64,000 nt of DNA from Xiphophorus maculatus (lineage: Eukaryota > Chordata > Actinopteri > Cyprinodontiformes > Poeciliidae): contig NC_036453.1 in NCBI RefSeq assembly GCF_002775205.1, forward strand, positions 14,526,594 through 14,590,593, given 5' to 3'. The notes under the pieces are model-generated. The model had not been told where the DNA came from and searched no databases. It saw only the letters and a list, made by a program, of their open reading frames with translations. The position numbers were made by a program, and so were the translations under genes. Positions 18,301 to 20,859 of this stretch are shown piece by piece (the first letter of the stretch is position 1; every line of letters starts with the position of its first letter).

Positions 18301-20859
18301 CCGCTGGCAGCAGATCGAGTCTCTGACCGGGTTCTGTGTGGTCAACAATCCGGGTCTGGGAGCCCTGGCCGCCGCTCTGAACCTTGACCCGTCCTTCCTG
18401 GGCCTGCGACCTCCGACCCCACAGAACCTGCTCCTGTCAGACGACCTGGACGACATGGACGAGGACATCCTGTCTCCGGGGACGTTGCAGTGTAAGCCTG
18501 ACAGATTCTTCTTCTCCCAGTCTGAGTCGGGCTTAGCAACGGCGCCCCCTGCTGCTAAACGGGAAGTCAGCTGACCTCTGCTTCTCTCTCCTGATTGGCT
18601 GTCTGTAGACGCAGCCTGGCAGATGGACCGGCGTGTGAGCGACCTTTGGCCTCTGAGTGGCATCACAGACACGCAGTTACCATGGAAACAGTCAGGTTGA
18701 CAACCATCTCTGATTGGTCCTTAACCAAATAAATAAAAGCACAGACTCAGTGTAACTCTCTTCCTGTTTTCTGCAGCTCAGAGTCTGATGCCCCTGCGGC
18801 AGAGGGCAGGAGACCCCGGGTTGACGTTTGGCTCTCAGAGGTTAGTTGAGGGGCGTGGCTTATCTCAGGGTGGGCGTGGCTCGTCCACAGAGTCCCGTCC
18901 TCCAAGTGGACGCCCTCGGCAGAATCGCAGCCTCTCCATTGGCCAGATAGAGTTCCTTCCTGTGCTTGCACCGCCTCTCTCCTCCTCCCTGTCCCACCCT
19001 TCCATCGACCTCACTTCCTGTCCTCCTCAGCCAAACTCTTCGTCTTCCTCCTGTGCCCAAGGCTCCGCTCATTTTTCTGCTCCGCTTTCCCGATGTTCTC
19101 ACTTTATCCCTCTGGATACTGCGCCAGACCTCCAGACTCCAGGGGGCGCTGTGGCCAGCCAGAGGCAGCGCTGTCGCTCCGGCAGCTTGGGGTATTCTTC
19201 TTCTTCTGTTTTATCACTAATGTAATGAAAACGGGACAAAACAATGTGAAACCAGTCAAACCAAGAAATTTTAAGATTTTGCTAATTTAACCTCCATAGC
19301 TAAACTTTGATTGATCGGACATAAATTTTATAAATAACACAAAACTAAGTTTATAAATTTCTTACATTTTGAACCTTCAGTTAATGTCAATGATAAAAAT
19401 AATACATTTGTAGAATGAAGTGAGAGAAAAACTACATTTTAATCTGAAAATTATTGCCCGAGTCTCATGTTTAGTAAAGTTCATAAATCATCTTGATCTC
19501 GTCTTATCAGAGTTAAAGTGAAAAACATAAACACAAATTTAAAATCAGTCAATGATTGATTAATGTTGTCCACCCTGAGTTACCAGTGCACACCAATGAC
19601 TGGTTGTCATAGTAACATCTCCTGCACTATGTTGATACCAGTTCCAAGATGAACAACTTCTGTCAAAGAGTGCGTTTGATTTCTAGACCAGAGCAGTTGG
19701 TGAACACAGCTTTCTTTCACTGTTCAGCAAAAACATTTCTGGTTCTTCCTGTTCTGATCTTCCTGTTCTGATCTGTCTGTCTTCCTCTTCATGTCTCTTT
19801 ATTTGGGTCGTTATTAGATGGCTTAATAGAATGAATGCAAGAGTCTTCCCTGGATCCCAAGGGTCTCCAAATGACCCCCAGTGTCTCCCATTGATCACTA
19901 GGGAATTCCATTGACCCCTTCTGTCTCTAGTTGACCCCCGGGTTCTCTGAAGAACCGCAAGAATCTCCCATTGACCCAAATGACCCCTGGAGTCTCCCAT
20001 TGACCACTGGGGAATCCCATGGACCACTAGGGTCTCTGATTGACCCCTAGGGTCTCAGAATGACCACAAGAGTTGCTTTTGAACTATAATAAATGGGACA
20101 TTCACCAACAAATTAAACGTGTATTGATGATTTTGATGATGGCATTGGTCAAAATGTAATATTTGTCACTGATTTCTCAATTGTTGACTGTATGTTGTTT
20201 TTATGACTTTTTATTTTTGTGATGCAGAGCACTTTGAATTGGGTTGTTGCTGAAATATGCTATCCAAATAAACATGATTGAGTCTCCAGTTGACCCCTAG
20301 GGTTTCTAAATGATCACTAGAGTCTATGATTGACCCCTCATTTTTCAGAGAACCTGGGGTGTGATGAAGACTCCATTTCTGATCATCTCCTCCTCCTCCT
20401 CCTCTCAGGGACATCATGAGCCGCTCAGACTCTGACTCCGCCCTCGCTCTGTCTCTCAGCGAATCACGCGCTCTGCATCACTCCAGGCCCCATCTTCTGG
20501 ACTCCAGGCCCCACCTCCTGCAGGATCAAAGCTCTGCCCACAGAGGAGGAGGAAGAGGAAGTGGATGTCTGGAGAAGAGCTCCAGCCTGGTGGAACTGAG
20601 AGGCCCCTCCTCCTCCGCCCTCACCTCTGCCTGCTCCACCCATTCCCTCTGCATGGCCGCGGACGACAGCGCTGCCTTCCTGTCCTCGTCCGCCTCGTCC
20701 AGCTCATCCGGCATCGGACAGGGAGCCGGTGTCCAGCCGTCCAACCTGAGGAAGGACAGAGCAGACGGTCTGGAGGTGTCTGTTAGCCGCAGGAAGAAAG
20801 CTTTCTACACCATCTTCAGGAAACGGCGGGACAGTCCGGACGCTGTGAGCCAAAGATGA
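9339..20859 (+). CDS. stim1: Stromal interaction molecule 1-type ER calcium sensor (complete)
   Basis: STIM proteins sense ER calcium and open Orai channels (store-operated entry). Coding exons: 9339-9474, 11790-11920, 11988-12102, 12255-12366, 12437-12552, 13021-13195, 16832-17009, 17078-17245, 18051-18151, 18256-18491, 18777-18840, 20409-20859. All phases join, giving 660 residues (human STIM1 685). Visible in order: signal peptide [16 protein letters not shown]; redox cysteine pair C48/C55 with mammalian spacing; EF loop 75-86 ([12 protein letters not shown]); SAM domain with two sequons (NWT, NVT); membrane span about 212-230; coiled coil; SOAR region with KIKKKR and [10 protein letters not shown]; acidic stretch 473-481. 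Phe at 392 is the STIM1 form; STIM2 has Leu there. The C-terminus ([14 protein letters not shown], then SPDAVSQR) is less basic than in mammals, and no S/TxIP motif is seen. An acceptor-like CTCCTCAG just before the ATG suggests an upstream 5' UTR exon. The a/b paralogue was not resolved. Confidence 0.93.
10380..10960 (-). mobile_element. LINE reverse transcriptase fragment (Rex1/L2-like) in STIM intron 1
   Basis: On the minus strand, about 10,590-10,923 gives [17 protein letters not shown], then [19 protein letters not shown] and [11 protein letters not shown]. This is the order seen in the reverse transcriptase of common fish LINEs (usual forms TTVLVLLDLSAAFDT, then ETWVGL and LSWFQSYLK). 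The frame is broken several times and both ends are missing. It is a dead, antisense fragment. Confidence 0.75.
12986..13015 (+). repeat. (TG)n tract abutting the acceptor of STIM exon 6
   Basis: Two TG runs (12986-12998 and 13001-13015), separated by CT, lie immediately before GAGCAG at 13015-13020, the 3' splice site of the membrane-span exon. No normal pyrimidine tract is present, so UG repeats occupy its place in the transcript. Confidence 0.9.
13307..13522 (-). mobile_element. LINE reverse transcriptase fragment in STIM intron 6
   Basis: The minus strand encodes [19 protein letters not shown], the conserved GVPQG-x-x-x-GPLLF region of LINE reverse transcriptase. It lies just downstream of STIM exon 6 and antisense to it. 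Only about 70 residues are readable. Confidence 0.65.
13523..16831. other. Remainder of large STIM intron 6, no gene
   Basis: About 3.3 kb of intron. It holds scattered GCTAA-type words, a CA tract near 14,206-14,221 and another antisense LINE scrap (16,180-16,330). No open frame with family resemblance, RNA gene or intact element was seen. Confidence 0.6.
16180..16330 (-). mobile_element. Short LINE reverse transcriptase scrap
   Basis: The minus strand reads [17 protein letters not shown] around 16,265-16,315, matching the G(V/I)PQG block of LINE reverse transcriptase. Little else is readable. The call rests on this motif and on similarity to the other fragments in this window. Confidence 0.45.
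17246..17455 (+). repeat. Minisatellite starting at the donor of STIM exon 8
   Basis: A tandem array with core CTGAGGGCCCCAACACA, unit about 19-30 bp and about 8-9 copies. The first copy is the splice donor itself: the intron begins GTGAGGGCCCCAACACAAC. Later copies carry CTGAGG in place of GTGAGG, so they lack the donor GT. Confidence 0.85.
17470..17770. repeat. TAAATATTTAG/GCTAA degenerate repeat in STIM intron 8
   Basis: Repeated words such as TTAGCTTGCTAATA, TAAATATTTA and AACTAAATATTTAG, of the same kind as at 1-650. AT-rich, with no coding content. Confidence 0.55.
18609..18695 (+). other. stim1: Candidate cassette exon of the STIM gene (87 nt, 29 aa)
   Basis: Between constitutive exons ending at 18491 (phase 1) and starting at 18777, an acceptor (TCTGTAG at 18602-18608) opens a stop-free stretch. 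It encodes [14 protein letters not shown], then [15 protein letters not shown]. It ends at a weak donor (GTTGAC) in phase 1 again, so inclusion adds 29 residues without shifting frame. Skipping gives TLQ joined to [10 protein letters not shown], which matches the human STIM1 junction. Mammalian STIM1A carries a ~31-residue 'domain A' insertion at about this position; whether this exon is its homologue is inference, since I do not recall that sequence. Confidence 0.6.
18841..19191 (+). other. stim1: Candidate STIM1L-like 3' extension of exon 18777-18840
   Basis: Directly after the normal donor at 18841, the frame stays open for 351 nt (exactly 117 codons). It reaches a second donor-like site (GG then GTATTC at 19192) with the same phase 2. 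Splicing from there to 20409 keeps the last exon in frame. The added segment is rich in Ser, Pro and Arg (for example [18 protein letters not shown]). In mammals the muscle isoform STIM1L arises by lengthening the corresponding exon and inserts about 106 residues at about residue 515, directly after the GSQR-type motif, as here. Use of the distal site is not shown by sequence alone. Confidence 0.55.
19850..20340. repeat. Degenerate short tandem repeat in the last STIM intron
   Basis: A word of about 25-30 bases is repeated with many changes, with cores GGGTCTC, CCATTGACCCC and CTAGGG. Examples lie at about 19,866, 19,885, 19,925, 19,970, 20,030 and 20,290-20,335. The last copies lie within 80 bases of the acceptor at 20,408. 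Confidence 0.6.

Follow-up and report, generated by a model that had tools for sequence, protein, structure and literature searches.

A probable in-phase, STIM1L-like extension of exon 11 in the STIM1 gene of Xiphophorus maculatus

The insert of human STIM1L is reported to comprise residues 515-620 (106 residues) and to arise from an extension of exon 11 (PMC4710697; PMC13143212), and the question raised by this locus is whether a fish STIM1 gene can produce the same form. The available text of a 2019 paper reports no STIM1L-like sequence in zebrafish (PMC6471419). We found no report of a fish STIM1L in the accessible literature on STIM1L and stim1 in fishes, on splice variants and on their evolution; predicted isoforms may be present in NCBI or Ensembl. 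Here, we analysed a window of 64,000 nucleotides from X. maculatus, numbered from its first letter. The reading that we prefer, at a probability of about 0.78, is that the window carries a fish STIM1 gene whose exon 11 has two donors, with the choice of the distal donor giving a STIM1L orthologous to the mammalian form.

We found that the product of the gene contains EF-hand_STIM1, SAM_2 and SOAR above the cut-off (Pfam), and that in a PDB search it matches the human STIM1 EF-SAM structure (2k60, 4.2e-54) more closely than the human STIM2 EF-SAM structure (2l5y, 4.5e-44). The gene is STIM1, closer to STIM1 than to STIM2. The human STIM1 used for alignment is a provisional copy; it has 685 residues, as expected, and is consistent with published positions, namely DDVDDMDEE at 475, an insert after 491 and an insert at 515. 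The following features were placed, with a slash marking the exon border in splice sites:

9339 to 20859, plus strand: coding span of the STIM1 gene, with 12 core exons and one optional cassette; reading intact and uninterrupted, all introns GT-AG
18256 to 18491, plus strand: exon 10 (end of SOAR, inhibitory domain), from alignment with human STIM1 413-491 and the gene model
18609 to 18695, plus strand: cassette exon of 87 nt with a net gain of 29 codons, the probable domain A of STIM1A / STIM1beta; its phase permits inclusion or skipping, and RRVSD lies at residues 8-12
18777 to 18840, plus strand: exon 11, short form, with GSQR at its end; acceptor CTGCAG/, proximal donor GAG/GTTAGT (score 3.33)
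18841 to 19191, plus strand: extension of exon 11, probable STIM1L insert; open and phase-keeping, with a GC edge near its end and an end-to-end alignment with a provisional human insert
18926 to 18946, plus strand: RSLSIGQ (RSLSSGQ in the provisional human insert)
19097 to 19129, plus strand: stretch of 11 residues, possible counterpart of the actin-tethering stretch (SYFLQMEPYPD in the provisional human insert), from the MAFFT alignment
19192 to 19197, plus strand: distal donor GTATTC (GGG/GTATTC), weak
19222 to 19227, plus strand: alternative in-phase distal donor GTAATG (AAT/GTAATG)
20409 to 20859, plus strand: last exon, with a Ser-rich region, a polybasic tail and the stop TGA at 20857-20859

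The frame of exon 11 stays open past 18840 until a TAA at 19223-19225, and the GT after 19191 lies in the same phase, so that the long form would gain exactly 351 nt, or 117 codons, after GSQR. This run from 18840 to an in-phase GTATTC had been described in the initial annotation, and its coordinates and codon count proved correct when frame and phase were recomputed. When either form is spliced to 20409, its frame continues to the TGA, which gives 1983 nt for the short and 2334 nt for the long form, stop included. The extension shows no tandem repeat, and the insert, in which Ser and Pro abound, looks disordered by composition. TGCATG and GCATG are both absent between 18500 and 20450. The distal donor, described earlier as not strong, indeed scores only -2.56, a value equalled or bettered by 26.5% of the 3624 GT sites in the window; the accepted donor at 12552 scores below it. 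That donor (CAG/GTCCAG, at 12553) is the weakest of the gene model, at -3.66, and the exons on both of its sides are conserved with human STIM1.

Next, we examined the base composition around the distal donor. The GC content is 0.61 over the extension and 0.31 beyond it, and the maximum-likelihood edge falls at 19193 (support 19187-19198), at most two bases from the predicted exon end. The log-likelihood gain of this changepoint is 37.8, whereas none of 116 other 860-nt intron stretches exceeds 25.7, and none of 671 sampled 351-nt stretches of other STIM1 intron sequence reaches a GC content of 0.60 (maximum 0.573). Following the four other donors with at least 351 nt of intron, the GC content is 0.373, 0.385, 0.447 and 0.493. 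The same changepoint method places the edge 2, 22 and 32 bases away for three of these donors, and for the fourth, which opens the intron after 17245 and whose intron is too short for the set of 116 stretches, at 17478 (gain 59.3). The composition of the extension exceeds chance expectation. We also observed that the start of the intron after 17245 (17246-17478) is a repeated GC-rich stretch, with GGCTGAGGGCCCCAACACA-like units by eye, up to the GC edge at 17478.

We then compared the insert with that of mammalian STIM1L. The match that had been claimed in position (after GSQR, human 514/515), in mechanism (lengthening of exon 11) and in size (117 versus 106 residues) holds throughout, as does the phase, as judged from the gene model and the published descriptions available (PMC4710697, PMC13143212). 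Regarding the sequence itself, the human insert used for alignment is a provisional version with 105 of the 106 residues, set down after the fish insert had been seen, so that a bias towards the latter is possible, and 12 short pieces of it gave no match in the literature text searched. We take RSLSSGQ and SYFLQMEPYPD to be motifs of the human insert. When the whole proteins were aligned with MAFFT, the inserts agreed in LVEG and SxSLG at their start and end, respectively, and in RSLSxGQ and SxF...PD in between, and the fish insert lacks the Thr run that we take to be a feature of human STIM1L.

Global alignment of the fish insert with the provisional human insert gives a score of 42, with 999 of 1000 shuffles scoring lower, and all of the 506 other open 117-codon stretches sampled in the window (both strands, overlaps included) stay below that score, the best reaching 11. 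Other frames also score lower (best 4 forward and -26 reverse). Much of this score stems from both ends, since 101 of 1000 shuffles equal the alignment once the first four and last three residues are removed, and 3 of the 506 decoys equal the match without the first four and last five; local alignment is not significant (541/1000 shuffles). Considering the ends separately, E-G at insert positions 3-4, as in the provisional human insert, occurs in 0.27% of shuffles, and agreement at four or more of the last five residues in 0.09%, with L-V at the start left uncounted, being partly fixed by the proximal donor. For RSLSIGQ, an equally good 7-residue match at most 14 residues from the diagonal was found in 6 of 400 shuffles. 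The interpretation given in the initial annotation is supported in part: the insert resembles the provisional human one at both ends and in two internal motifs, but the resemblance is weak without the ends. Orthology of the fish insert to the mammalian one is likely but not proven, because the human sequence is provisional. A pattern scan of prokaryote and viral contig collections (75 and 116 matches) yielded no relative and is uninformative on fishes.

Three other explanations were weighed against the STIM1L reading. The segment could be ordinary intron that is open and GC-rich by accident, with the gene making the short form only. An open frame on its own is weak evidence here, since 12.2% of 5000 dinucleotide shuffles of the segment keep its frame open, as do 9% of 611 sampled 351-nt window stretches with a GC content near 0.6, and openness was accordingly dropped as proof of an exon. 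Codon usage does not discriminate either, the score being 0.17 in frame, -0.06 and 0.11 in the other forward frames and 0.24, 0.20 and 0.29 in the reverse frames, with third-position GC at 0.57 in the extension versus 0.79 in the STIM1 coding sequence. The weakness of the distal donor points the same way, and a high GC content at the start of an intron does not imply coding, given the GC-rich opening of the intron after 17245 and a GC content above 0.61 in two of the seven short introns of the gene. What such an accident leaves unexplained is that the GC edge falls on the distal donor and that the segment matches the provisional STIM1L insert from end to end, and we consider it unlikely.

The extension could also be real and yet end elsewhere, either at a donor after 19221 or at the TAA at 19223, in the latter case with intronic polyadenylation and a truncated STIM1 that would lack the polybasic tail. 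The GT at 19222, absent from the initial annotation, would add 10 codons and scores above the donor at 19192 (0.16 versus -2.56), and AATAAA occurs within the intron at 20088 and 20267. Position 19221, however, lies outside the support of the GC edge, with the GT itself 30 nt beyond the edge, and the S-L-G end of the insert matches the end of the provisional human insert, which leaves this the least probable of the three. An extension that arose independently of the mammalian one, through the same lengthening of the exon, is in turn very improbable: the middle of the insert aligns poorly, Ser/Pro-rich sequence is prone to chance matches and the interior is matched equally well by the three decoys mentioned above, but the site and the phase are the same and the motifs, including both ends, are colinear.

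The STIM1L reading is further supported by the probable presence in the same gene of the neighbouring mammalian splice module, domain A. The cassette at 18609-18695 sits one intron upstream of the extended exon, following the equivalent of human residue 491. In human STIM1A / STIM1beta, the insert is reported to follow residue 491 and to carry RRFSDR at 499-504, that is, at insert residues 8-13 (PMC9008427). The fish cassette has RRVSDL, with RR, S and D at the same offset and with F and the last R replaced. Across 37573 open 29-codon windows on both strands, RRxSD at that offset was found in two, the cassette itself and one at 23642. The cassette resembles the mammalian module in lying between exons 10 and 11, in keeping the phase and in the offset of RRxSD (PMC9008427, PMC7795233), and differs from it in having 29 codons instead of 31, in a comparison made from the human motif alone. 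The source, in its available text, describes the STIM1A / STIM1beta exon for mammals only, where it is well conserved (PMC9008427). The cassette donor (CAG/GTTGAC) is weak, at -3.31. Altogether, 18609-18695 is probably the fish form of STIM1A / STIM1beta domain A and a candidate alternative cassette.

Regarding function, we infer that the proximal donor (after 18840) would yield standard STIM1, whereas the distal donor (after 19191) would insert 117 residues after GSQR, ahead of the last exon, and so yield STIM1L, and that this long form would be enriched in muscle and tethered to actin through the stretch at 19097-19129. In the human protein, SYFLQMEPYPD presumably starts at residue 591 or 592. 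Deletion of ten residues of human STIM1L (589-599) is reported to hinder actin tethering (PMC4406124), and from the nearness of the two, 19097-19129 would be the fish counterpart. That this stretch is the conserved core of the actin-tethering region, and that the weak proximal and weak distal donor form a conserved switch, is a combined reading that we favour somewhat over its negation.

The role of STIM1L in mammals is itself disputed. The initial annotation had attributed permanent Orai clusters to the mammalian insert; permanent clusters together with rapid entry are indeed described, by one group (PMC4710697; PMC4406124), but this is contradicted by Sauc et al. 2015, who are reported to have seen no co-localisation of Orai1 and STIM1L before store depletion and no acceleration of SOCE (PMC4406124). 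According to the text available, RT-PCR shows both stim2 forms to predominate in the muscle of zebrafish, a result that does not favour a major role of any stim1 form in that tissue (PMC6471419).

These results suggest that STIM1L arose before fishes and land vertebrates diverged. In the available text of one source, STIM2.3 is treated as more recent than STIM2.1, STIM1L, STIM1B and STIM1A, with no fish named there (PMC13143212). STIM1B, described as using a short exon of its own that truncates the protein (PMC12951789, PMC13143212), is a different case from the in-phase extension of exon 11. If the STIM1L reading is true, STIM1L is not an innovation of mammals, the part played by the long form in store-operated calcium entry can be studied in fish muscle, and the few residues common to fish and human mark the needs of an otherwise fast-changing insert. 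The negative result in zebrafish would then be qualified, the sequence having been either overlooked there or lost in zebrafish and kept here.

Finally, we report observations on the rest of the gene and the window. The last exon (20409-20859) keeps the basic tail and contains no [ST]xIP motif. In human STIM1, we take TRIP to be the EB1-binding [ST]xIP motif, and the window STIM1 may therefore not follow microtubule ends. Two long open stretches elsewhere in the window, at 53969-57693 on the minus strand and at 33537-33776 on the plus strand, resemble what we take to be PCF11 and a guanylate cyclase activating protein, respectively; one short piece of each gave no match in Pfam. A gene of the ALG6/ALG8 glycosyltransferase family lies at 42491-42853 on the minus strand (Pfam 1.8e-12, from a piece of 49 residues).
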